From the NCBI GenBank assembly GCA_947259225.1, contig CAMYLK010000015.1, positions 1 to 64,000 on the forward strand: a stretch of 64,000 bases of DNA. Reading direction: 5' to 3'. This stretch comes from an uncultured Desulfobulbaceae bacterium. GTDB taxonomy: Bacteria; Desulfobacterota; Desulfobulbia; Desulfobulbales; Desulfobulbaceae. The translations under genes were made by a program, and so were the position numbers. Below, piece by piece: positions 6,550 through 35,748 of this stretch. Below the pieces are notes generated by a model, which saw only the letters and a list, made by a program, of their open reading frames with translations, was not told the DNA's origin and did not search any database. How positions within the stretch are numbered: position 1 is the stretch's first letter; the number at the start of each line of letters is the position of its first letter.

Positions 6550-7659
6550 TTATGCAGCTTGAGGCAATTCATGGGCAATTGCCCAGATAAATCCTGTAAG
6601 TTCCCTGGCTATAGCCGTTTTGACGACATTGCTTTTTTTCCCTCTTGCCGTTAATCGGGCAAAACGGCCGCATAATCTGCACTGAGCTTTCCAGGATATC
6701 TTGCGGATGGATTCCGGCACTTCTTTCTGGCGCTTGAGGATAGCTCGACTCTTTCTTGCCGGGAGTCGATAAGCCTGGGCAGCTTCAATCAAAGCCTTGC
6801 GGACATGACCATTACCGGTTTTGGTAATCGAGCCTCTCTTTACTGTTTCACCACTGGAATGCTCAGAAGGAACAAGGCCAACAAAGGCCATCAGTTGACC
6901 GGGACGTTTAAACCTGGTGAAATCTCCAAGTTCGACTGCCAGAGTCGCAGCAACGATCAGGGAAACTCCGCGCAATGCTTGCAAAACCTTGATCAGTTCC
7001 GCTAAACCACTCTGCTTTGCTTGGTGCCGTATTTGTTCGGTAAGTCTGTCAACACGTTCCCTGCAATTGTGAATAGCATCAATATATTCCTGGAGCGTAA
7101 TCTGCTGTGCCGGATGGGGCATGGTAATGTCAGCCAGCCAGTTGAAGTGAGCTTTGGACCATTTGCTTCTTCCCGAAAACACGATATTATGTCGAAGCAA
7201 GAAAGCGCCAAGTTGCTGTTTTGCGCTACGATGCGCATTCTGGGCGTCTTTCCGGGCCCGCACCAGATCACGGAGTGCTTCGTCCTCGGAGCTGGGGACA
7301 TAGACTGCAGTCAGTTCTCCGGCCCGATGATTTCGGGCAAGGGTAATACTATCGCGCCGATCGTTTTTCAGACGAATCCCACTTTTCCGGGGAATAAGAG
7401 AAGGCGCTACAACTGTACAGTCAATGCCGTTGCCGGTTAAATGGCGATAAATATAATACCCACAAGGCCCTGCTTCATATACGCATCGAAGCTCAAATCC
7501 TTGAGAAACAAGCTTGCGGATAAATTTATCAAGTTGATTCATTTTGTTTTCAATACAGCCATGAAATCTTACTTCACTGTCACGTTCCTGGTCGGCTATT
7601 GCTATGGAAATAGAATTTTTGTGGACGTCCAAACCAACATACTTTATTCTCTTTGTCAT
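6550..7659 (-). CDS. IS110 family transposase
   Basis: 369-aa RNA-guided recombinase-type transposase. The RuvC-like N-terminal domain carries the DEDD residues D11 (GLDVHK), E62 (VYEAGPCG), D100 and D103 (KNDRRDS). The C-terminal transposase_20 domain has the typical block LRGVSLIVAATLAVELG followed by FVGLVPSEHSSG. Length is normal (about 340-400) and the frame is intact, so it may be active. A strong AAGGAGG precedes the ATG at 7659. It is inserted between rsgA and the Lys-rich small gene. Confidence 0.92.
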   Translation of the reverse strand: MTKRIKYVGLDVHKNSISIAIADQERDSEVRFHGCIENKMNQLDKFIRKLVSQGFELRCVYEAGPCGYYIYRHLTGNGIDCTVVAPSLIPRKSGIRLKNDRRDSITLARNHRAGELTAVYVPSSEDEALRDLVRARKDAQNAHRSAKQQLGAFLLRHNIVFSGRSKWSKAHFNWLADITMPHPAQQITLQEYIDAIHNCRERVDRLTEQIRHQAKQSGLAELIKVLQALRGVSLIVAATLAVELGDFTRFKRPGQLMAFVGLVPSEHSSGETVKRGSITKTGNGHVRKALIEAAQAYRLPARKSRAILKRQKEVPESIRKISWKAQCRLCGRFARLTARGKKSNVVKTAIARELTGFIWAIAHELPQAA

Positions 7660-15379: not shown

Positions 15380-16567
15380 CTAATCCTTCTCAGTTGTCAA
15401 AAGATCCAGGTAATCTGCCCAGGCCTGCATCATCTTCCGGCGCTCAGGCAAAAACTCGGCATAGTTGTAGGCTGCTCTCACACTGTTTCCTTCCGCATGG
15501 GCAAGCTGGCGTTCAATGGCGTCCCGATTCCAGCCCTGTTCATTGAGCAGGGTACTGGCCATACTGCGAAAACCGTGGCCTGACATCTCTTCCTTAGCAT
15601 AACCCATGCGACGCAAGCCAGCCAGGACAGTGTTGTCGCTCATAGGCCTCTGCCCGGTACGCAGTGAAGGGAAGACATAGCGGCCCTGGCCGGTTAAGGG
15701 TTGCAGATCTTGAAGGACAGCAATGGCCTGGCGGGAAAGCGGCACAATATGGGGATTCCGATTTTTCATTTTCTCGGCCGGAATTTTCCATTCCTCATTG
15801 TCAAGATTGATTTCCGACCATTCGGCGTGCCGCAGCTCACCCGGCCGCACAAAAACCAGGGGAGCGAATTTGAGGGCACACTTGGTTATGTGATGACCTT
15901 CATAGCCGTCAATGGCCCGCATGAGTTCACCAATTTTCCTTGGATCGGTGATGCTGGCCATACGCTTTGATTTGACTGGCGACAAGGCGCCGCGCAGATC
16001 CACGCTGGGGTCCCGTTCGGCCCGGCCGGTGGCAATGGCGTAGCGGAATATTTGACCGCATATCTGCTTAATCCGGTGAGCAGTCTCAATGGCCCCCCTG
16101 GATTCTATACGCCGCAGAATGGCTAAAAGATCCGCCGCAGTAATCGTTGCTATGGGCTGATCTCCCAGCCAGGGGAAGACATTCAACTTCAAGCGGCTGT
16201 CAATGGTGCGGGAATGTCCTTCCGTCCAGGTATGCTTGTTTTTGGCAAACCATTCCCGGGCCACAGACTCGAAACTGTTGGCAGCCTGCTCGGAAAGCTC
16301 ATTCTTAATTTCCTTCTTGTACTGGAGGGGGTCGATTCCGTTTTCCAGTAATTTGCGGGCATCATCGTACTTTTCTCGTGCCCGCTTCAACCTAACATCA
16401 GGATAGACGCCCAGGGACAGGGTCTTCCGTTTACCGCCGAAACGGTAGTCGAAGCGGAAATATTTGCCCGTCTTGTTGACCAGCAGGTAGAGACCACGCT
16501 GATCTGCCAGTTTATAGGGCCTGTCTTTTGGCTTAGCGTTTCGTACTGCGACATCTGAGAGCGGCAT
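15380..16567 (-). CDS. P4-type tyrosine integrase of the ssrA island
   Basis: 395 aa from the ATG at 16567; the longer open frame to 16711 runs through operator-like repeats and is rejected. It has an N-terminal DUF4102 arm-binding domain (start MPLSDVAVRNAKPKDRPYKL), an SAM-like core-binding region (about 100-190) and the catalytic domain. Catalytic residues visible: Arg in VRPGELR, His/Arg in HGFRS, His in QLAHAE and Tyr in AYNYAEF. Such integrases insert islands at tRNA or tmRNA 3' ends; here the target is the tmRNA gene 174 bp upstream. It appears intact, so excision may still be possible. Confidence 0.93.
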   Translation of the reverse strand: MPLSDVAVRNAKPKDRPYKLADQRGLYLLVNKTGKYFRFDYRFGGKRKTLSLGVYPDVRLKRAREKYDDARKLLENGIDPLQYKKEIKNELSEQAANSFESVAREWFAKNKHTWTEGHSRTIDSRLKLNVFPWLGDQPIATITAADLLAILRRIESRGAIETAHRIKQICGQIFRYAIATGRAERDPSVDLRGALSPVKSKRMASITDPRKIGELMRAIDGYEGHHITKCALKFAPLVFVRPGELRHAEWSEINLDNEEWKIPAEKMKNRNPHIVPLSRQAIAVLQDLQPLTGQGRYVFPSLRTGQRPMSDNTVLAGLRRMGYAKEEMSGHGFRSMASTLLNEQGWNRDAIERQLAHAEGNSVRAAYNYAEFLPERRKMMQAWADYLDLLTTEKD

Positions 16568-16630
16568 GACGGTATCTCGTTTAAATTTGTGAGCAGATAC
16601 CGTCAAAAATACCGTCACTTTTGACGGTAT
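16567..16630. promoter_or_regulatory. Four-fold ATACCGTCA repeat cluster at the integrase promoter
   Basis: Half-sites: TGACGGTAT (16567-16575, touching the start codon), ATACCGTCA (16597-16605), ATACCGTCA (16609-16617) and TGACGGTAT (16622-16630). The outer two are inverted relative to the inner two. Possible roles are autorepression of the integrase or arm-type binding sites for integrase or an excision factor. Confidence 0.6.
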
Positions 16631-16662
16631 GTCAAGAAATTTTATTGAACCGCCTCGGACAC

Positions 16663-16697
16663 AAAAAAGCCCGGAACCGTTGAAGGAACTGGGCTTT
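16663..16697 (-). terminator. Rho-independent terminator of ssrA
   Basis: On the minus strand AAAGCCCAG pairs with CCGGGCTTTTTT, and the T-run lies at 16663-16668. It is 44 bp beyond the tmRNA 3' end, between ssrA and the integrase gene. Confidence 0.75.
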
Positions 16698-16740
16698 CTA
16701 GACTTTATCAAACCTGGTTGGACTTAGCTGGATTAAAAAA

Positions 16741-17100
16741 TGGTGGAGGCGGCGGGAGTCGAACCCGCGTCCGGAAATACTCCCCTCACGTATCTACATG
16801 CTTAGTTCCCGGATTAAATTTCGCGCCAGAGTCTCTCCCGGAACCCGGATATCCTGGTGCTAGCCTGATTAGTCTCGTCAGCAGGGCGACAGGCGCGCCT
16901 AGCTAACCAACCCGCGAAGTCGACGCTCCGATCCAGTCCAGCGGGTGAGGACCGGGGGAACGGCAAAGCAGTACTAAGCTGCCATTGCGTAGTTATAATC
17001 GTCTGCGATTATAATTATGTTCCGTCAGTTTTACGAGCAGACAGAAAGCTCGGCATGCAACGTTGAGCTTATATATCCCCGTCGAATCCGTTTCGCCCCC
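16741..17100 (-). ncRNA. ssrA: Transfer-messenger RNA (tmRNA)
   Basis: 360-nt one-piece tmRNA. The 5' acceptor strand GGGGGCG (ending at 17100) is followed by the family signature GGATTCGACGGGG. The 3' end has a tRNA-like T arm (GCGGGTTCGACTCCCGC), the acceptor strand CGCCTCC and an encoded ACCA at 16741. The tag reading frame from the likely resume codon GCA (17004-17006) encodes ADDYNYAMAA and ends at TAG (16974-16976). It works with SmpB, whose gene lies just upstream, to rescue stalled ribosomes. Its 3' end is the attachment site of the island to the left. Confidence 0.97.
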
Positions 17101-26076: not shown

Positions 26077-26829
26077 TCACATTTTCCAGTTTTCCTGCAG
26101 AAAACCCCGGCCGGCATGATTGGTCAGATCCAGTTGAATAGGGGTAACTGAAATAAAGCCCTCCTGCAGGGCCTGATCATCCGTTTCTTCACCGCCGGAC
26201 CAATGAACGGTACCACCCCCGATCCAGTAATGTTTCCTGCCCCAGGGATCATACGTCTCCTGGATGGCATTTTTGTAGATCCGCCTTCCCTGCCGGGTAA
26301 AACGAATACCTCGTATTTCCTCCGGCTTGAGCTGAGGTATATTGATATTGAGAAGGGTATTTTCCGGCAGGCCGAACTGCATGGCCATGGACGCCAGTTT
26401 CCACGCAACTCCTGCGGCTGTTTCAAAATCATACGGAGGTTCACCGGCAAGGGAAAAAGCCAGGGAGGGGATACCGTACATAGTCCCTTCAATAGCGGCT
26501 GACACCGTACCGGAATAACTGATGTCATCGCCAAGATTGGGGCCGGGATTGATACCTGAGACCAGCAGATCAGGTTTTACAGGGAGGACCTTGTTCATAC
26601 CGATCGTGACGCAGTCTGTAGGAGTCCCGTCCAGTGTATATACATCTGGTTCAAGTTTACGGACATGCAGGGGACGGTTCATGGTCAGGGAATGACTGAC
26701 AGCGCTTTTATCACGCTCCGGGGCTATGATGACAGCCTTTCCAAGATGGCGGACCGCATCGTGGAGTGCCCTTATTCCAGGCGCGTATACGCCGTCGTCA
26801 TTGGTTACCAGGAGATATGTCATATTCAC
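26077..26829 (-). CDS. surE: 5'/3'-nucleotidase SurE
   Basis: 250-aa metal-dependent nucleoside monophosphatase linked to stationary-phase survival. Metal ligands sit in TNDDG (near the N-terminus) and SGINPGPN; ISYSGTVSAAIEG is the usual block after it. Full length. Its ATG overlaps the end of cbiK by 4 bp, so it is translationally coupled to the corrinoid operon although its role is unrelated as far as known. Confidence 0.95.
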   Translation of the reverse strand: MNMTYLLVTNDDGVYAPGIRALHDAVRHLGKAVIIAPERDKSAVSHSLTMNRPLHVRKLEPDVYTLDGTPTDCVTIGMNKVLPVKPDLLVSGINPGPNLGDDISYSGTVSAAIEGTMYGIPSLAFSLAGEPPYDFETAAGVAWKLASMAMQFGLPENTLLNINIPQLKPEEIRGIRFTRQGRRIYKNAIQETYDPWGRKHYWIGGGTVHWSGGEETDDQALQEGFISVTPIQLDLTNHAGRGFLQENWKM

Positions 26830-27713
26830 CTTAACTCTATTCCGGTATCTCTTGCTGCATCAGCTGCATTATCAGCAAATATCTGCGCAAACGTATCCTG
26901 TTCACCCAGACCGCTCTGGACTGCTTCAACCTCGAAACCTGCCTGTTCCAGCTTGTTCTTCCATCCCCGGGGCGGGTCACCGGTCATGTCGTTACGGGCA
27001 TGATTACCGGCCACAACCATCAGCGGCTTGAGAATGATGCTGCATGTACCATGCTTTTGTAATTTCAGGATGGCCTCCTCCAAAGTCGGCGATCCCTCAA
27101 CCGTTGCTACCAGGGTAAGCACATCCGGATAGAGCTTTTGCATGGCTGCTGCAAATTCTTTATAGAGGGTACCGGTTGGACTCTGTTTGCTGCCGTGCCC
27201 CATGTATAAAAGTGCCGCCTTCCTTTCCCTGGCATATCGCGCATCACTGGCAAGAACTTCCGCAGTTCCGAAGATATCATCAATAGCCGGATCGTCAACA
27301 GAACTGCCCAGAGCAGGCCTGCCCACCACCAACTGCACCGTGTTGTCGGTCATCAAACTATCGATAACGGAAAGAAGGTCTCTGTATTCCTTTACAGGGG
27401 TCATGAAAACCGGTTGGACAATGATGGCATTATACCCGGAACTGCTGAGTTCATCGATGACAGAAAATGGGTCCCTGATTTTGAGAACCTCACCTGGCAC
27501 TTCCGGATTGGCTTCGCAGAACTGGAGATCCTGTGCTCTTTTATGCCAGATACGGCGGATTATATTTGATGTAAATGCGATTCTTACCTGAGTTTCTGGA
27601 AACCGTTCAACTACCTTGTCCCGGATATTGAGAAGCCCGGCAAGAGCATGTTCGACTGATGTACCGAACATGGCCAGCACTATGGCATTCTTATATTCCG
27701 AACTCTTTTCCAT
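26826..27713 (-). CDS. cbiK: Sirohydrochlorin cobaltochelatase CbiK
   Basis: 295-aa class II chelatase inserting cobalt (or iron) into sirohydrochlorin, an early step of anaerobic B12 or sirohaem synthesis. Metal-binding His residues lie in YMGHGSKQ and VVAGNHARND; MTPVKEY is also family-typical. There is no signal peptide, so it should be cytoplasmic, unlike the exported CbiK variants of some sulfate reducers. It is the last corrinoid gene downstream of the riboswitch. Its presence suggests the cell makes or remodels corrins as well as importing them. Confidence 0.92.
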   Translation of the reverse strand: MEKSSEYKNAIVLAMFGTSVEHALAGLLNIRDKVVERFPETQVRIAFTSNIIRRIWHKRAQDLQFCEANPEVPGEVLKIRDPFSVIDELSSSGYNAIIVQPVFMTPVKEYRDLLSVIDSLMTDNTVQLVVGRPALGSSVDDPAIDDIFGTAEVLASDARYARERKAALLYMGHGSKQSPTGTLYKEFAAAMQKLYPDVLTLVATVEGSPTLEEAILKLQKHGTCSIILKPLMVVAGNHARNDMTGDPPRGWKNKLEQAGFEVEAVQSGLGEQDTFAQIFADNAADAARDTGIELR

Positions 27714-27793
27714 ATCTTATGATCTCCCCGGCTCCACAGAAAAAAAATCAGCTGAAATCAACACGTCGACTCTACTGAAAGAGTATTGCAAAG

Positions 27794-28582
27794 TCAAGAA
27801 ACCGGGTCTGGAACAAGACTGATCCTCGGTGTCCCTGAAAGAGGATGTGAATCAACATGCATAGTGCATCCGTAAGCCTGCTGAAGGTTATCCGGGGTCA
27901 TGATTTCCTCCGGAGTACCTGAAAGTATTCCCCTGCCTTCCTTGATAAGGAGGATACGGGTGCCGAACATGGCCGCCAGGTTCAGGTCGTGGGAAACCAT
28001 GAGCACTGTGATCCCCTCCTCATTTCTGAGCCGCAGCATGAGCTGCATGATAACCAGCTGGTGAGCCGGATCAAGTGCTGCCGTCGGTTCATCAAGGAGC
28101 ATTATACGGGGTTGCTGACAGATTGCCCGGGCGATCATAACCCGCTGGCGTTCCCCACCGGAAAGCTGATCGAGTCGGCGGTCGGCCAGGTGATCAACCT
28201 GGGTAATACTCATTGCCCTCCCGGCAATTTCATAATCATGCTTCGACTCCTGCTGCAGAAGGGTAAGATGGGGTGCGCGCCCCATGAGCACAGTTTCCTC
28301 AACACTAAAGGCAAACTCAAGGTTCATCTGCTGTGCTACGATCGCAACAGTAGCTGCCAGTTTATTCCTGGAATAGTCCTCCAGGGGTTTTTCCAGGATA
28401 TTCACCTCTCCGGAAACCTTATCAACCAGACCGCAAATTGTTTTGAGCAGGGTTGTTTTACCGGCTCCGTTCGGACCTATAATGACTAAAAAATCTTTTT
28501 GCCGGACATCCAGATCAAGGTCGTCAAGAATATTCCTGCTGCCAGCCCTGACTGTCAGACCTTTTACACTGACCGATTTCAT
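27794..28582 (-). CDS. btuD: Cobalamin-type ABC importer ATPase
   Basis: 262-aa ATP-binding subunit of a FecCDE/BtuCD-type importer. Walker A GPNGAGKTT (36-44), signature LSGGERQR, Walker B IMLLDEPTAALD and the His switch VSHD are intact. It overlaps the permease gene by 4 bp. The corrinoid assignment comes from the cobalamin riboswitch upstream and cbiK downstream; by sequence alone it could be a siderophore importer. Confidence 0.9.
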   Translation of the reverse strand: MKSVSVKGLTVRAGSRNILDDLDLDVRQKDFLVIIGPNGAGKTTLLKTICGLVDKVSGEVNILEKPLEDYSRNKLAATVAIVAQQMNLEFAFSVEETVLMGRAPHLTLLQQESKHDYEIAGRAMSITQVDHLADRRLDQLSGGERQRVMIARAICQQPRIMLLDEPTAALDPAHQLVIMQLMLRLRNEEGITVLMVSHDLNLAAMFGTRILLIKEGRGILSGTPEEIMTPDNLQQAYGCTMHVDSHPLSGTPRISLVPDPVS

Positions 28583-29580
28583 ACCCGGTTCCTCCAGAGC
28601 ATTATGATAAATAGCGGAGCACCGATCAGCGCCGTAATAACTCCCACCGGCATTTCTCCTGTTGCCGGCAGAACCCGGGCCAGAAGATCGCAGAGTACCA
28701 GGTACGCTCCTCCGCCAAGGATACAGGCCGGTACAAGAGTTCTGTGATCAGGGCCGAAAAGGAGCCGGAAAAAATGGGGCACCACAAGCCCCACAAAACC
28801 AACAAGGCCAGCCTGACTGACGATCAGACTGACCATAAATGATGTGGTGCCCAGTAAAATCCAGGTCACCCCGCGAATATGCAGCCCCAGGGCCGCAGCC
28901 GACTCATCGCCGGTAAGGAGAAGATTCATGGGCCGTGCCTGAGTAAAAATCAATAAATAACAGAACAGCAGTGGGATCAGCAGCCAGAACTGGTCAGGAT
29001 CTGCCATGGACAAATCGCCCATCAGCCAGAACAGAATGTGATGGACCTGCGAGCTCTGGGAAAGTGAAATAAGAAACATAATGCAGGCTGAGCAGAACGC
29101 GTTCAGCATAACCCCGGCCAGGAGGAGAGTATCACTGCGGCCGGTGCTTTGATGGCGGGCAAGCAGCAGGACACCTCCCATTATCATCATGGCGCCGGTA
29201 AAGGAGAAAAGAGTTACGCCGGGGAACATCGCCATTCCAAGAAACATCCCGAGGATTGCTCCTACTGCCGCTCCTCCGGATATACCAAGAATATATGGTT
29301 CCGCCAGGGGATTTCTAAGGCGGGCCTGAAATACCAGGCCGCCCAGAGAAAGGGTACCGCCCACCGCGGCTGCCAGAATTGCCCGAGGTAGCCTGATACG
29401 CCATATTATTGCTTCTGCAGCGGCATCGGTTGTCTTGCCGCCTGTCAAGACCGCAAAAACATCTCCAGGAGTCAATTTTGAAGATCCTGTGAGCAATGAA
29501 GCCAGAATTGAACAGCACAGAGCACCGCCGAGGAGTACGACAACCATGGAAAGTCTTTTCATGAGCGGCTTCTGATACAT
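28579..29580 (-). CDS. btuC: Cobalamin-type ABC importer permease (FecCD family)
   Basis: 333-aa inner-membrane subunit with about ten helices. FecCD blocks seen: [15 protein letters not shown] near residue 50, [20 protein letters not shown] and [16 protein letters not shown] near the end. It sits between the binding-protein and ATPase genes in the riboswitch operon. Confidence 0.92.
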
Positions 29581-29588
29581 CTTGATGC

Positions 29589-30491
29589 TTACGGTTTTAA
29601 ATGGAAGAGGTTTACCAGTTCAACCAACCCGTCAATGAGTCGAGGTACAGGTCTGTCAAAAAGGCTCGCATCAACCACATACAACCGGTCCTCTCTGACT
29701 GCGGGGATAAGAGGCCATTTTCTCCAGGCGGCCTTTAACTGCTCCTCTGAATATCCTCCGGCCATGGATGCAATTATAACCACTTCAGGCTGCATGACCA
29801 ATAAATCCTCCCATGAAAAACGAGGGTAGCTTACCGGGCCGGCAGCCAGATTTTTCCCTCCGGCGCGACTGATAAGATGGTCAATAAAAGTGTTGGTACC
29901 GGCTGAAACTATCGGTGCTGCATCAATCTGAAAAAACACTCCTGGTTTCTTTTTTATCCCGCTAACCTTCTGATCAACCTTTGCTATTTTCCTTTCCATG
30001 GCCCCGGTAATTTCGTCGGCCCGTTGAGAGGCGTTCAGGATACCTCCCAGCAACTGGACAGACTCCATTATCTCCGGAATTGTCTGTGGGTCGAAAGCAA
30101 AGACGGGGATACCCATCTTTTCAATTCGCTCAATTAAATGTTCCGGATTGCCGTCACGAACTCCCAGGCAGAGGTCCGGCTGCAGAGCAACAATTCTCTC
30201 GATATCAAGATGGAGATAGGAGCCCACCCGGGGCAGTTTCTCCGCTTCAGGAGGCTCCTTTGCGTACTGGGTAGCACCGACGAGGACATCCCCCCTGCCA
30301 AGATCAAAAACTATTTCAGTGAGACTTGGAATCAGGGAGATAACTCTTTTCGGCTGCAAGGGAACCAGAACTTCACGCCCTACCTGGTCCTTCAGCAGAC
30401 GGTTTCCAACTGTTTCCTCACCCGCGATACACCAGCAGCATGCAAAAAGGTGGGACACAATTAAACCTGCCACCAGTAAATACGATTTCAT
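29589..30491 (-). CDS. btuF: Cobalamin-type periplasmic binding protein
   Basis: 300 aa with a signal peptide (about 1-23). Two lobes are joined by a long helix, as in BtuF-class binders: RVISLIPSLTEIVFDLG at the start, LPRVGSYLHLDIERIVALQPDL, and PRFSWEDLLVMQPEVVII in the second lobe. Captures corrinoid released by the outer-membrane receptor and hands it to BtuCD. Its ATG overlaps the tonB stop by 4 bp. Confidence 0.9.
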   Translation of the reverse strand: MKSYLLVAGLIVSHLFACCWCIAGEETVGNRLLKDQVGREVLVPLQPKRVISLIPSLTEIVFDLGRGDVLVGATQYAKEPPEAEKLPRVGSYLHLDIERIVALQPDLCLGVRDGNPEHLIERIEKMGIPVFAFDPQTIPEIMESVQLLGGILNASQRADEITGAMERKIAKVDQKVSGIKKKPGVFFQIDAAPIVSAGTNTFIDHLISRAGGKNLAAGPVSYPRFSWEDLLVMQPEVVIIASMAGGYSEEQLKAAWRKWPLIPAVREDRLYVVDASLFDRPVPRLIDGLVELVNLFHLKP

Positions 30492-31228
30492 TGCATATCC
30501 TTTAAAACAAAATGGACAGGAACCAGTACCTGCATTGCAACGGGTTGATCTCCTTTCATTCCAGGTTTAAATTGCCATTTTCTGACAGCATCAAGAGCAG
30601 CATTGTCAAGCAGGTCAAAGGAACTGGTGGTATGGACCCGAACCGATCCCACCCACCCGTCAGAACTCACCTCAACCTCAAGCAGGACTGTCCCTTCCCA
30701 GCCGCGACGCCGAGCCAGATTGGGATATTCAGGCGGATCGTTGAACCGGTAGAGAGGTACAGCCTGATGAACATTAACGGACTCAGCAGCCTGCTGAACC
30801 GTCGTACCGGAACCTTTTGCTTCCTGGATGGCTTTTTGCGTTGTTCTTTCCTCTTGAACGGGCAATTCATCTTGTTTGAGCATGTTTTGCACCTGCTTGA
30901 TTTCCTCTACCACCTCCGGCGACGGGACTGCTTTTCTTTTTATAGGCTGCGTCGGCGATGGGGGGATGATTACCGACTTTTCCTCCTGGACAGGTTCAGG
31001 GATCTTTTCAACAAACTCTTCGAGTGGCGCCGAATTATCAGGTTCAACTGCAAGAGGGACAGCATCAATCACCTCAACAGGTTCCGGAGCAGGATGGAAG
31101 AGGCGCACCGTCACCTGGCGTATTCCTTTCAATTGAGGTTCAAATTCCCCCTGGCCGGGAAGTACCATGAAAAACAGGATAACATGACTACCCAAAGCCA
31201 GCAGGAATGCCAGGCTGAGCCTTGCCAT
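30488..31228 (-). CDS. tonB: TonB family energy-transducing protein
   Basis: 246 aa: one N-terminal membrane helix (about 4-25), a Pro/Glu/Lys-rich periplasmic linker (about 50-150) and a TonB_C domain (about 165-246) with YPNLARRRGWEGTVLLEVEV and ALDAVRKWQFKPG. It carries proton-motive force from ExbBD to the receptor. It directly follows exbD. Being inside the operon, it is probably dedicated to the corrinoid receptor. Confidence 0.93.
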   Translation of the reverse strand: MARLSLAFLLALGSHVILFFMVLPGQGEFEPQLKGIRQVTVRLFHPAPEPVEVIDAVPLAVEPDNSAPLEEFVEKIPEPVQEEKSVIIPPSPTQPIKRKAVPSPEVVEEIKQVQNMLKQDELPVQEERTTQKAIQEAKGSGTTVQQAAESVNVHQAVPLYRFNDPPEYPNLARRRGWEGTVLLEVEVSSDGWVGSVRVHTTSSFDLLDNAALDAVRKWQFKPGMKGDQPVAMQVLVPVHFVLKDMQ

Positions 31229-31651
31229 TTACTCCCTCTTCTGCTCAGCCTGAAGTGAAATTGAGGAAATACCAGCAGCACTGATCCTGTCAAGGACCTC
31301 GTAGAGCTGCTGATATGAAACCTCCTGATCGGCAAACAAGAGTACCTCCGGATTTTCATCTGCAATAAGGACCTGACGATTCAGTTTCTTTTCAAGCTCT
31401 TCCAGGGAGATTGGATCCATATCAAAATATGTTTGGGCAACACCATCCTTTACGTCCACAGAGACAGACAGTGATGCTTCCGTTGATCTGCTGGGATTAA
31501 CAGAATCGGGCAGATCAAGATTCATTCCACGATGAACAGCCATAGACAGCATCGCGTAGATAAAAAAGACCAGCAGCAGAAAAACGATGTCAATCAGGGG
31601 TACCATTTCAATCCGGGCAGGTCTTGTCGCATTCCGTCGACGGATCTTCAT
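31229..31651 (-). CDS. exbD: ExbD/TolR family proton-channel protein
   Basis: 140 aa with a single membrane helix (about 16-40). The essential protonatable Asp is D21 in VPLIDIVFLL. The periplasmic part ends in a typical ExbD fold (VLLFADQEVSYQQLYEVLDRI). Overlaps the end of exbB by 4 bp. Confidence 0.94.
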   Translation of the reverse strand: MKIRRRNATRPARIEMVPLIDIVFLLLVFFIYAMLSMAVHRGMNLDLPDSVNPSRSTEASLSVSVDVKDGVAQTYFDMDPISLEELEKKLNRQVLIADENPEVLLFADQEVSYQQLYEVLDRISAAGISSISLQAEQKRE

Positions 31652-32280
31652 GAGCCCCCTCCCGTATTACTGCTCCGAAGATAATGTTCGTAGGCGAGCT
31701 CCAGGCTGGTTGCGTACTTCTCCATTTCATGAGTTGCCCGCTCTATCCGACTGTTGAAATAGTTGTATGGAAAAACCGACATGATAGCTATGCCGAGACC
31801 GGCCGCGGTAGTAATAAGCGCCTGAGCAATACCGCCGGTCACCGCCCGGGGATCATCAAGCCCGGCCATGCCCAGAACCTTGAAGGAAGAAATAATGCCG
31901 AGAACCGTTCCAAAAATACCCAGCAGAGGACTCACGGTTATCATGGTGTCAATCACCCCCATGAATTTCTGCATTTTTTGTATCTGGGACTCTGCTTCCG
32001 CTGCCATGGCGCTGGTCATGTCGTAGTCCCTATGCAATATCCCGGAGACGAGTACCCTGATGACATAATCATTGCTGTGGGCGGTGCACTCTCTGATGGC
32101 TTCCCATTCTCCTTTTGAGGCCAGGTCAAGAATTTCACCGGCCAGGTTACGGTTGCGGTTCTTCAAAGAACCGAACCAGAACATCAACCTTTCAAGGATA
32201 ACGACCAATGCCAGAAATGAACACCCCAGAAGCGGCCACATTACCGGTCCGCCGCTTTGATATACTTCCCAAACCCGCAT
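31648..32280 (-). CDS. exbB: ExbB/TolQ/MotA family proton-channel protein
   Basis: 210 aa with three membrane helices: an N-terminal one (about 14-34) and a pair in the C-terminal half containing TVSPLLGIFGTVLGIISSF and GIAQALITTAAGLGIAIMSVFPYNYF. With ExbD it powers TonB. It lies 81 bp downstream of the receptor gene. Confidence 0.94.
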   Translation of the reverse strand: MRVWEVYQSGGPVMWPLLGCSFLALVVILERLMFWFGSLKNRNRNLAGEILDLASKGEWEAIRECTAHSNDYVIRVLVSGILHRDYDMTSAMAAEAESQIQKMQKFMGVIDTMITVSPLLGIFGTVLGIISSFKVLGMAGLDDPRAVTGGIAQALITTAAGLGIAIMSVFPYNYFNSRIERATHEMEKYATSLELAYEHYLRSSNTGGGS

Positions 32281-32361
32281 ATACGCCTCCTGTACTTTCT
32301 CTGCCTTGCGCCTTCAAACTTCCCGGAGCGGTGTTCCGCCCGCTCCGACTACCTTACATGA

Positions 32362-34341
32362 TCAATATTCCCAGCGCAATCCGGCAAAAAAGCTTCTGCC
32401 CGGCATGGGATTACCCAGTACGTAGGCATACTCCTCGTCAAACATGTTGCGAATCTCACCGCGAATCGTCCAGTTACCGAATTGCTCGCTTTTAAGAAAA
32501 CGATAGCTTGCAACCAGGTCTGCAACGGCAAAACTATCCAGTTCCACGACAGGGACGGGATAAACTTCCGCCGCCCAGTCCTGCACATCCTGTGAGCCTG
32601 TGTAGGCCACGTTAAACCTGCAGAACCAGTCGCTGCCATCCGCCACAACCAACCCGGTGGAAAATGTGGTGCCGCTTATATACAGGAGATCCTCACCCGT
32701 GGTTTCATCTTCAAATTTTGTCAGCAGGGTCATGTTCAGATAAGGTCGGATCTCCCATTCAAGATTCATAGACACACCGATGTCATAGGACAGTTCCGCC
32801 TCAAAACCATCTATGGCCGCGCTGCCAAGATTAACCCATGAACTGGATCCGTCCGCCTGGATATAATTGGTTATTTTGTCATCAAAATCAGTGGTAAAAT
32901 ACGTGAGCGAACCGGCAAATCCTGCCTGCGCATAGTCCAGTCCGCCATCCAGAGTTCTGGATGATTCCGCTTTCAATTCCGGATTGCCAACTGTCCTGAT
33001 ACCCCAGTTCCAGTAATCCGCTGCCAACTGATCGGCTGAAGGCATGACAAATCCTTCAGCATACCTGGCCCGCAACTTGAGAGTTTCTGTTGCCAGCCAG
33101 GCCAGGCCAAGTGACGGGGTAAGATGGTTGTCCTTCTCATTCCGACCGGCTGGTTTAACAACCTCAACATCATACCAGTCGTAACGAAGACCAGCTGTCA
33201 AAATGAGGCGATCAGCCAGCATGGTCCCTTTGCCCAGGAGAAACAACGCCGGGTTGGTGTATTCTGTTTCTTCCGGAGTCCAGGTATTCTCGACTGTATA
33301 TTTGACCCAGTCAAAACCACCGACAAGAGTCACCATTCCAAAGTTACCACTCATCTGGGCCTGCGCACCCTGCTGATCGGTTTTGTTGGTGGCAGTCTCT
33401 CCCAAATCCCAGCCATCCGGGTTGGAAGCAACCGGATAGGTCCACTTGTTTTCGTCTTTACCAAAAAAATAGCGCGCCATCCATTGATACTGCCCGGAAC
33501 CATCACGGCCGTCATAGCGTATATCCAGGGAATAGTTATCCTTGTCCGTATAATCATCTGTATCGACTGCGTTGAAATATCCCGGGTTGCCGTCCTGATC
33601 CACATTGAATCCGGTAAATATCATTCCAAGGCGGTTACCTGTACTCAACGAATAGCCCCCATTGAGGCTGACACCTGTTTTGGAATCAAACCCAGTGTTT
33701 TCATAGGTCTCGCCGCCGCCGGTTTCATAATCTCCAATGGTCTGACCGGTGATGGTGCCGGCAAAATCGAAACCGTTCCAGAGAAAAGTTGCGCCGATGG
33801 TGCCTTCGTACTCGTCAAAACTGCCGGCTCCGCCTTCAACCATTACTGAATTACGGTTACCTCTGCGGGTAATGATATTCACTACGCCGCCTACTCCACC
33901 TGAACCATATTGGACTGCTCCGGGACCACGGATGATTTCAATACGCTCAACATTTTTAGTCAGGATTTTTGCCATATTCCCGGTGCCGGCCCGGCGACCG
34001 TCCAGTAAAACCAGAACGTGTCCCTGCAGGTCATTGCCATGGGTTTCGGTACGGAAGCCTCTAATGGCGATGGATGTCAACGTCCCCGGATATTTCTGGA
34101 TATGACTCAAGCCCAGTTCGGCGAACAGGTCGCCCACATTCCGGGCTGCTGCCTGATCCAGCTCCTCACGAGTTATGACCGAAACGTTGGCGGTCACATC
34201 CTTTTTTGATTGTTCGATCCGGCCGGCAGTCACAATAACCTCGTTAAGCGTCCTGACCTCGGCGGCCCACGAAGGACAACTTGAGGCTGCCCAGACAGCC
34301 GACAGGGCCAATGCACCAAGACCAAACTTTTTTCGCAGCAT
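32362..34341 (-). CDS. btuB: TonB-dependent corrinoid receptor (BtuB-like)
   Basis: 659-aa outer-membrane receptor. The ATG at 34341 has a strong GGAGG site and gives a clean signal peptide ending SWAAE; the longer reading to 34395 lacks both. TonB box LNEVIVTA (about 30-37), plug domain to about residue 160 (IRGPGAVQYGSGGVGGVVNI), then a 22-strand-type barrel with many alternating aromatic strands, ending FFAGLRWEY. The cobalamin riboswitch directly upstream makes a corrinoid or cobalt substrate very likely. Confidence 0.92.
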   Translation of the reverse strand: MLRKKFGLGALALSAVWAASSCPSWAAEVRTLNEVIVTAGRIEQSKKDVTANVSVITREELDQAAARNVGDLFAELGLSHIQKYPGTLTSIAIRGFRTETHGNDLQGHVLVLLDGRRAGTGNMAKILTKNVERIEIIRGPGAVQYGSGGVGGVVNIITRRGNRNSVMVEGGAGSFDEYEGTIGATFLWNGFDFAGTITGQTIGDYETGGGETYENTGFDSKTGVSLNGGYSLSTGNRLGMIFTGFNVDQDGNPGYFNAVDTDDYTDKDNYSLDIRYDGRDGSGQYQWMARYFFGKDENKWTYPVASNPDGWDLGETATNKTDQQGAQAQMSGNFGMVTLVGGFDWVKYTVENTWTPEETEYTNPALFLLGKGTMLADRLILTAGLRYDWYDVEVVKPAGRNEKDNHLTPSLGLAWLATETLKLRARYAEGFVMPSADQLAADYWNWGIRTVGNPELKAESSRTLDGGLDYAQAGFAGSLTYFTTDFDDKITNYIQADGSSSWVNLGSAAIDGFEAELSYDIGVSMNLEWEIRPYLNMTLLTKFEDETTGEDLLYISGTTFSTGLVVADGSDWFCRFNVAYTGSQDVQDWAAEVYPVPVVELDSFAVADLVASYRFLKSEQFGNWTIRGEIRNMFDEEYAYVLGNPMPGRSFFAGLRWEY

Positions 34342-34375
34342 ATTTTCCTCCCCAATCAGTTTCCGGCCCGGAAAT

Positions 34376-34410
34376 AAAAAACCCCGGACCGACAATTATC
34401 GATCCGGGGT
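34376..34410 (-). terminator. Riboswitch-linked intrinsic terminator
   Basis: On the minus strand ACCCCGGATCGAT pairs with GGTCCGGGGT and is followed by six T. It lies between the cobalamin aptamer and the receptor start codon, so ligand-bound RNA would be expected to end here. Confidence 0.85.
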
Positions 34411-34470
34411 CCCTGATTTTCCCACAGATACGTTTACAGCTTCTCAGTTCCACGGAGAGCTATCCACATT

Positions 34471-34630
34471 TTCCCAGGCAGGTCTTCTGACTTTTGGATC
34501 ATTCTACTGGCTGAGCCTTCCCGTTTCCAGAAGAAACAGTGACATCAAACAGCTTTCGTCCCCAATCACAGCGGCGGGCCCGTCTCCGAATTCCACGGAG
34601 TTCCCTTTTCATCCGTCTACACGGAACCTG
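34471..34630 (-). promoter_or_regulatory. Cobalamin riboswitch
   Basis: The minus strand shows the B12 aptamer blocks in order: GGTTCCGTGTAGACGG start, AAAAGGGAA, GACGGGCCCGCCGCTGTGA, the GTCACTG element, GGGAAGG, AGCCAGTAG and the closing AAGTCAGAAGACCTGCC. The terminator at 34376-34410 provides the expression platform. It should repress the whole btuB-to-cbiK operon when adenosyl- or methylcobalamin is plentiful. Confidence 0.96.
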
Positions 34631-34648
34631 AAAAATTCAATGAAAAAT

Positions 34649-34737: not shown

Positions 34738-35748
34738 TCAATTGCCTGAAAACGGGCCGAACCTGTAGCCGGCAGTCAGGTATATGGCCGTCTGACTGCT
34801 CTCCATTTCTGCCTGTATCGTATGATCATAGTACCCGAAAAATGATGAGCCCTGTTCTCCATCAACATCGATTGAGGTATGAGATACACCGGCTGTCATG
34901 AACCAGTGCTGGGTAAAATCATACATGGCATCAGCCGCAACCATAAAGGCATATCCATCATAACTCCCTCTATTCTCTTTGTAGCGCAGCAGATGCTGGT
35001 CCCTGTCCTCGGCATCAACCCAGGGGGCATAGGCAAAACGGCCGTTGATTCTGAAATTAGGATTCAAATCCAGCTGCCCGATCAAAAGCAGATAAGGCAT
35101 TTTGTAATTCACTTCGTAGAGAATTGATAACGCTCCGTCGCCTACATAATCAAAGTCTGGATATCCGGAAGGAGACCACTGCCGAATAACAGCAGTATCC
35201 CATTCAAAATCCTGGTACATATATCCTGCACCGGCAGCAAGCCACCCTTTTTCACCGCAGAATACTTTATATGCAAGATCGACATCAAGGACAAGCCCGT
35301 CAAACCGGGTTACTTCACTGTCAGAATAGATGTCAAGCTGGCCGGGGTTTGACTCCGTTATCCAGTCCCGATCCTCCATGTAATCATCAGGTTCCGTGAG
35401 GTTCTTTTTGAACACCACGTCAAAAAGGAGCCTGTCTTTAATAACCGTGTTCAGCTTGATGACACCAAAAACCGCATCGAGAGGGAACTTCAATTCACTT
35501 ATAGGAAAGTGTCCCGCATATACATTGCCAAATGAATCTGTAGCCGGAAAGCCTATCTGGTAGGTATTGTCACCTGACCATGATTCCACCCCGGCATGAA
35601 GCCAGGCCTTGGGCTCACCCTGGACCTGCTGCACAGGCTGAATGGATATGGTTGTCTCGTCCGATTTCACTGCAGTCCCTGCCATCACCGGTGTCACCAT
35701 GAATACTGCACTCACCAGGGAAAGCACACTCTTGTTCATTACTTTCAT
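34738..35748 (-). CDS. Omptin-like outer-membrane beta-barrel protease
   Basis: 336 aa with a signal peptide (about 1-24, VMAG). The mature chain has a beta-barrel pattern ending ...LTAGYRFGPFSGN. Two motifs match the omptin catalytic sites: D126-R-D128 in MEDRDWI (omptin DYDW Asp pair) and D250-Q-H252 in AEDRDQHLLR (omptin Asp-x-His). W-x-GDNTYQIGFP, the flanking WVDAEDRD and the final strands also align by eye with OmpT. Omptins cut peptides at basic residues outside the cell and need LPS. The call rests on motif spacing and is not certain; a plain porin is the alternative. Not clearly part of the neighbouring operons. Confidence 0.65.
   Translation of the reverse strand: MKVMNKSVLSLVSAVFMVTPVMAGTAVKSDETTISIQPVQQVQGEPKAWLHAGVESWSGDNTYQIGFPATDSFGNVYAGHFPISELKFPLDAVFGVIKLNTVIKDRLLFDVVFKKNLTEPDDYMEDRDWITESNPGQLDIYSDSEVTRFDGLVLDVDLAYKVFCGEKGWLAAGAGYMYQDFEWDTAVIRQWSPSGYPDFDYVGDGALSILYEVNYKMPYLLLIGQLDLNPNFRINGRFAYAPWVDAEDRDQHLLRYKENRGSYDGYAFMVAADAMYDFTQHWFMTAGVSHTSIDVDGEQGSSFFGYYDHTIQAEMESSQTAIYLTAGYRFGPFSGN

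Follow-up and report, generated by a model that had tools for sequence, protein, structure and literature searches.

An omptin-family gene of a Desulfobulbaceae bacterium belongs to a branch with tyrosine in place of the S1-pocket glutamate

Introduction

What is known of omptin specificity and biology comes from a small number of enteric enzymes, studied mostly as virulence factors. Escherichia coli OmpT (PDB 1i78), Pla and pOmpT are 10-strand outer-membrane barrels, the architecture that is also predicted for the protein described here. In Pla, Asp84 and His208 lie about 4.7 angstrom apart (PMC7696990). According to one published account (PMC11410778), Glu27 and Asp208 of OmpT form the bottom of the S1 pocket and set its preference for basic residues, the catalytic residues Asp83, Asp85, Asp210 and His212 are fully conserved across the omptin family, and mutation of any of these four abolished OmpT activity. 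The PomS/T porins (Pfam PF17251) are outer-membrane barrels as well, with 12 predicted strands, as opposed to 10 in our model, and limited similarity to omptins, as described in a survey (PMC4827864).

The window analyzed here is a stretch of 64,000 nucleotides of DNA from an uncultured Desulfobulbaceae bacterium, a sulfur-cycling organism of sediment type, and is part of a 74,875-base contig in a genome of 4.28 Mb (93.3% complete, 5.0% contaminated). A first-pass annotation made from the letters alone had proposed that it encodes an omptin protease outside the usual enteric hosts. An omptin as such is already known and is found by Pfam; what is new is the branch to which this one belongs, with its different S1 pocket. 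A search of one open literature library found no published account of this branch, of its extent, or of the loss of catalytic residues in its cable-bacterial members.

Results

The window gene encodes a predicted omptin barrel with four intact catalytic residues

Homology, fold, conservation of the four catalytic residues, branch and pocket residue were each established by computation. The open reading frame begins with ATG, just 5′ of which lies a ribosome-binding-like GGGAGATAAG, and the plus strand in the same frame over the same interval is interrupted by stops. The gene and its functional positions are as follows.

34738..35748, minus strand: omptin-family outer-membrane protease gene (P0001), 336 aa (ORF, Pfam, phmmer, predicted fold)
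35680..35748, minus strand: probable signal peptide, about residues 1-23 (judged by eye from the sequence)
35560..35562, minus strand: Tyr63 codon, the residue taking the S1-pocket position that Glu27 occupies in OmpT (MAFFT, hhalign, superposition register)
35365..35373, minus strand: codons 126-128, Asp126, Arg127 and Asp128, the Asp pair corresponding to OmpT D83/D85 (phmmer, MAFFT, hhalign)
35323..35334, minus strand: codons 139-142, with Asp139 and Ser142 as candidates for OmpT D97 (S1′) and S99 (two alignments, one residue apart)
35005..35007, minus strand: Asp248 codon, corresponding to OmpT D208 in the S1 pocket (MAFFT, hhalign)
34993..35001, minus strand: codons 250-252, Asp250, Gln251 and His252, the Asp/His dyad corresponding to OmpT D210/H212 (phmmer, MAFFT, hhalign)

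The encoded protein almost certainly belongs to the omptin family. Its best Pfam family is PF01278 (Omptin), with a score of 60.4 bits against a cut-off of 22.6, and because the E value is 1.9e-16 this similarity is well beyond chance. NCBIfam omptin models also match (E up to 1.1e-11), with scores far under their cut-offs. A phmmer comparison with the PDB sequences returned six distinct sequences, all omptins (E up to 1), and a profile of 66 branch members likewise returned six sequences, all omptins (E up to 0.1). The first-pass annotation had called the protein a probable omptin and proposed a profile search; that search bears the assignment out, and the fold comparison agrees with it.

The AlphaFold model of the window protein, built from seven branch members, displays ten long strands, in keeping with the barrel that had been claimed (mean pLDDT 78.7; residues 1–43 below 50). 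The top 11 rows of a Foldseek search with this model are omptin chains, and VIA-align places it on solved omptins with Z scores of 27.5–30.8 and an rmsd of 2.0–2.2 over 260–276 residues. The next family in the VIA-align list, from which the absence of a family does not exclude that family, is OpcA (Z 18.9), and a Legionella porin is also among the next folds. A better match to a porin family, which had been named as the outcome that would overturn the omptin assignment, was looked for and rejected, since none outscores omptin in the Pfam, Foldseek or VIA-align rankings.

The superposition on OmpT, with ∼19% identity over 275 residues, begins with window residue 47 on OmpT residue 11, which is the same register as the pairing of Tyr63 with Glu27. 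D126, D128, D250 and H252 align with OmpT D83, D85, D210 and H212 in three alignments (phmmer against the PDB chains, a 99-row MAFFT alignment, and a profile-profile alignment by hhalign), so that the positions first proposed for the Asp pair and the Asp/His dyad are confirmed both there and in the ORF. The pair sits within E-D-R-D-W and the dyad reads D250-Q-H252. As in OmpT, all four residues of the model lie at strand ends, around loops predicted as L2 and L4, and the two barrels superpose closely. Asp208 of OmpT corresponds to Asp248, and the equivalent of Asp97 is D139 by MAFFT and I140 by hhalign. Compared with OmpT, the protein has a longer L1 segment (28 versus 20 residues) and a shorter L5 segment (27 versus 31). 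The N-terminus looks like a signal peptide by eye; the C-terminal residue, Phe in 54 of 66 relatives, is Asn in the window protein, which has Phe at 330.

A separate branch of omptins lacks the S1-pocket glutamate

PF01278 matches were found in 15 of 37 related genomes, some scoring ∼200 bits over the whole model and others, including the window protein, 30–70 bits. When 257 genomes of the class were searched with a profile built from the window's kind, 84 gave matches, with scores in two groups: 47 of these genomes carry a match of at least 137 bits, and the next best scores 102. Among 395 genomes drawn from the phylum, 49 match the window-kind profile and 36 match PF01278. Such numbers make the host unsurprising; omptins occur commonly across the phylum, and the taxon by itself is weak news. 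The loci with named records (30 in all) include Desulforhopalus singaporensis DSM 12130 and Desulfoprunum benzoelyticum DSM 28570, both cultured, and Desulfobulbus sp. Tol-SR. A scan of viral contigs gave 64 pattern matches and found no relative. Labels of metagenome-assembled genomes (MAGs) outside Desulfobacterota are doubtful, two sequences that are 84% identical (L063 and L064) being labelled Chlorobiaceae and Geobacteraceae. In a MAG labelled Chlorobiota, the omptin gene is split over two reading frames (L067:4860-5939).

The 99-row MAFFT alignment comprises 66 window-kind sequences, 29 of the other kind, 3 outlying ones and OmpT of E. coli K-12; duplicates and five pieces shorter than 280 aa (L067 twice, L105, L070 and L007) had been dropped from it. 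In the maximum-likelihood tree, a 100/100 branch parts OmpT and 29 relatives (the E side) from 69 others that include the window protein (the Y side). The same branch, again 100/100, is present in a second tree of 105 rows, for which 15 sequences were added and nine near-copies removed.

The two sides differ at OmpT position 27, which is occupied in the window protein by Tyr63 according to both MAFFT and hhalign. This position is Glu in 30/30 rows on OmpT's side and in 0/69 on the window's, where the residues are Tyr (60), Ser (7) and Phe (2). The E-side sample behind Glu27 as the mark of one side is narrow, because 27 of the 29 environmental rows there belong to the window's order and a profile of the window's branch served to recover many rows. 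Of the 15 added sequences, which represent other families of the phylum, 14 carry Tyr and 1 carries Phe at this place; the catalytic residues are retained in 15/15, and Asn stands instead of Asp208 in 13/15. E-side omptins of the window's own order (e.g., L002–L006), which score ∼200 bits against PF01278, share with the window protein the phylum, the catalytic residues and, by Pfam, the fold family; they are set apart by Glu27 (29/29), by a separate tree branch and by an identity of 20–23%. The initial omptin reading thus stands as to the family and falls short as to the type, the protein belonging to a branch distinct from OmpT/Pla that lacks the S1-pocket Glu27.

All four catalytic residues are intact in 55 of the 69 Y-side rows, every one of which has Tyr at position 27, and in 70 of 84 branch rows when the added sequences are counted. 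The association between Tyr63 and catalytic integrity gives a Fisher p of 3.5e-8, a value computed as though related sequences were independent, which should not be read as a probability. One member, L177, has Phe at position 27 with its catalytic residues intact, so the Tyr hydroxyl is not strictly required. Asp208 is kept in the window protein (D248) and in 61 of 66 main-set branch members, and on the E side 13/29 have Asp and 16/29 do not; Asp208 is accordingly a poor criterion for the OmpT/Pla type, and pocket chemistry varies on the E side too. OmpT R138 and R175, which we take to be the LPS-binding arginines, have no counterpart in the window protein, where D180 and N214 stand at their places; Arg is also rare there on the E side (1/29 and 0/29) and is nearly absent on both sides.

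Because Tyr63 replaces Glu27 while Asp248 stays, we infer that the P1 preference departs from the classic dibasic pattern; such a change of specificity is probable from the pocket residues, and the effect of the Glu-to-Tyr swap on specificity is a guess. We accordingly regard an outer-membrane omptin of an uncharacterised branch, with changed P1 preference, as the probable identity of the gene product, and we predict with good confidence that the window protein is an active protease. A classical OmpT/Pla-type protease that has merely diverged, retaining dibasic specificity with Asp248 alone as its basic pocket, would also keep its catalytic residues and would explain the persistence of Asp248 in the window and across most of the main set. 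We consider this unlikely, since Glu27 is invariant on the E side and absent from all 69 rows on the window's side, Asp208 is replaced as well in most of the added rows, and the two sides are parted by a 100/100 branch.

Cable-bacterial members have lost catalytic Asp210

The remaining 14 of the 69 Y-side rows lack one or more catalytic residues, and for this reason loss of activity appears to happen within the window's branch. By clade, the losses fall in Ca. Electrothrix (Tyr to Ser at position 27), its sister genus (Tyr kept), L063 and L085 (each with Phe), and L068 (D83 to N, Tyr kept). A Tyr-branch omptin is present in 7/8 genomes of Ca. Electrothrix and in 4/5 of the sister genus in the tree, which is probably Ca. 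Electronema. D210 is lost in all 11 copies found, 7 and 4 respectively (Leu in 7, Thr in 4), among them L099 (genome G099), L093 (G095), L091 (G098) and L014 (G022), whereas D83, D85 and D208 are retained in 11/11. The sister-genus copies have also lost H212 (Leu in 4), and those of Ca. Electrothrix have Ser at position 27. The cable-bacterial omptins are predicted not to cut, because mutating any catalytic residue abolished OmpT activity in the experiments related in the published account (PMC11410778).

Despite the loss of Asp210, dN/dS in these copies is low. The NG86 values are 0.068–0.171 for 21 Ca. Electrothrix pairs, 0.111–0.255 for 6 sister-genus pairs and 0.08–0.296 for 10 intact pairs, and they are rough, with dS >1 in 12/21 and 5/6 of the cable-bacterial pairs, respectively, and with G099 and G094 being near-copies. 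The Ca. Electrothrix scaldis protein is modelled as an omptin barrel (pLDDT 88.5; Z 30.2 to OmpT). In 4/4 Ca. Electrothrix neighbourhoods examined (L139–L142), the omptin follows the same gene cluster, which in L141 consists of a Mur ligase gene, murB, ftsQ, ftsA, ftsZ and a radical SAM gene on the same strand.

These catalytic losses would suit a porin or adhesin that is built on the omptin fold, for example a relative of PomS/T, and has stopped cutting. Such an origin would also accommodate OpcA and the Legionella porin as the next folds, the weak matches of Pfam Pom to 6/66 branch members, and the limited PomS/T–omptin similarity noted in the survey (PMC4827864). For the window protein, however, we judge it improbable: all four catalytic residues are present, the protein matches Omptin, as do 62/66 members, and the PomS/T model PF17251 gives no match up to E 1 in a search whose HMMER filters drop most weak matches. 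An active omptin with an altered S1 pocket remains our preferred reading of the window gene.

The omptin gene adjoins gapA and a B12-uptake operon

Upstream of the omptin gene on the same strand lies gapA (Gp_dh domains), which also adjoins the omptin in G002, a genome of the same genus. On the other side are a riboswitch and a set of uptake genes.

34460-34646, minus strand: cobalamin riboswitch (117.3 bits), between the omptin gene and the TonB receptor gene, pointing away from omptin
26826-34395, minus strand: TonB receptor, ExbB, TonB, binding protein, FecCD, ABC and CbiK genes, an ordinary B12-uptake operon, downstream of the riboswitch

Most likely, the omptin gene, a neighbour of gapA, forms a monocistronic unit outside the B12-uptake operon. 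Its place as the next gene upstream of the riboswitch and uptake genes, on the same strand, might suggest a B12-related surface protein of the adjacent cobalamin-uptake system, a link that we reject as highly improbable because the riboswitch stands downstream of the omptin gene and so cannot control it, and because in G002 gapA precedes the omptin, and the gene that comes after belongs to a cluster also present at the far end of the window's block, with no TonB receptor between. Promoter and terminator scans gave results at or below chance.

Across 33 distinct neighbourhoods (L055 and L153 being the same genome), no neighbours conserved over the branch as a whole were found. In 6 of them, a secreted-looking protein of ∼250 aa (cluster c1; e.g., L148:8857-9609, L062:6130-6876 and L067:5986-6732) is encoded directly 3′ of omptin on the same strand; this gene is absent at the window, and its product matches no Pfam family above cut-off, the best being DUF4412 with 16.4 bits against 21.6. 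Elsewhere in the window, a tmRNA gene (16741-17100, minus strand) adjoins an ORF (15380-16711, minus strand) that resembles a phage-type integrase by eye, and another ORF (6550-7659, minus strand) resembles an IS110-type transposase, judging by eye.

Discussion

We envisage that the window protein would be exported by means of its signal peptide and inserted into the outer membrane as a 10-strand barrel with its mouth facing outside, where the Asp126/Asp128 pair and the Asp250/His252 dyad would activate water and cut exposed peptides or proteins, as described for OmpT. Its role may be surface housekeeping or defence, cutting foreign or misplaced peptides in sediment, which is the weakest step of this scheme. 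The patchy presence of the gene argues against an essential role, because an omptin occurs in only 2/7 genomes of the window's genus.

A broader proposal, to which we assign slightly less than an even chance, is that there are two great omptin branches. All characterised enzymes would belong to the Glu27 branch, whose specificity is for basic residues. The second branch, broadly distributed in Desulfobacterota and with members in MAGs that carry the labels of several other phyla, would conserve an aromatic residue (Tyr) here no less strictly than its catalytic residues, and would cut at different sites. The enteric enzymes would then be a derived offshoot, because midpoint rooting places the Glu branch within the Tyr branch. 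The Tyr-branch protein of cable bacteria would be a non-cutting surface barrel kept by selection, located in Ca. Electrothrix beside the ftsQ-ftsA-ftsZ cluster.

Both readings, new specificity in the one case and a halt to cutting in the other, are directly testable. If they are true, the existence of a large environmental branch that is catalytically intact and has another kind of S1 pocket would make the omptin family mainly something other than what its few enteric representatives stand for, and the Tyr branch would supply surface proteases of new specificity. Its members in cable bacteria would provide a natural case of a conserved omptin that no longer cuts, on an outer surface that is of special interest in these organisms.
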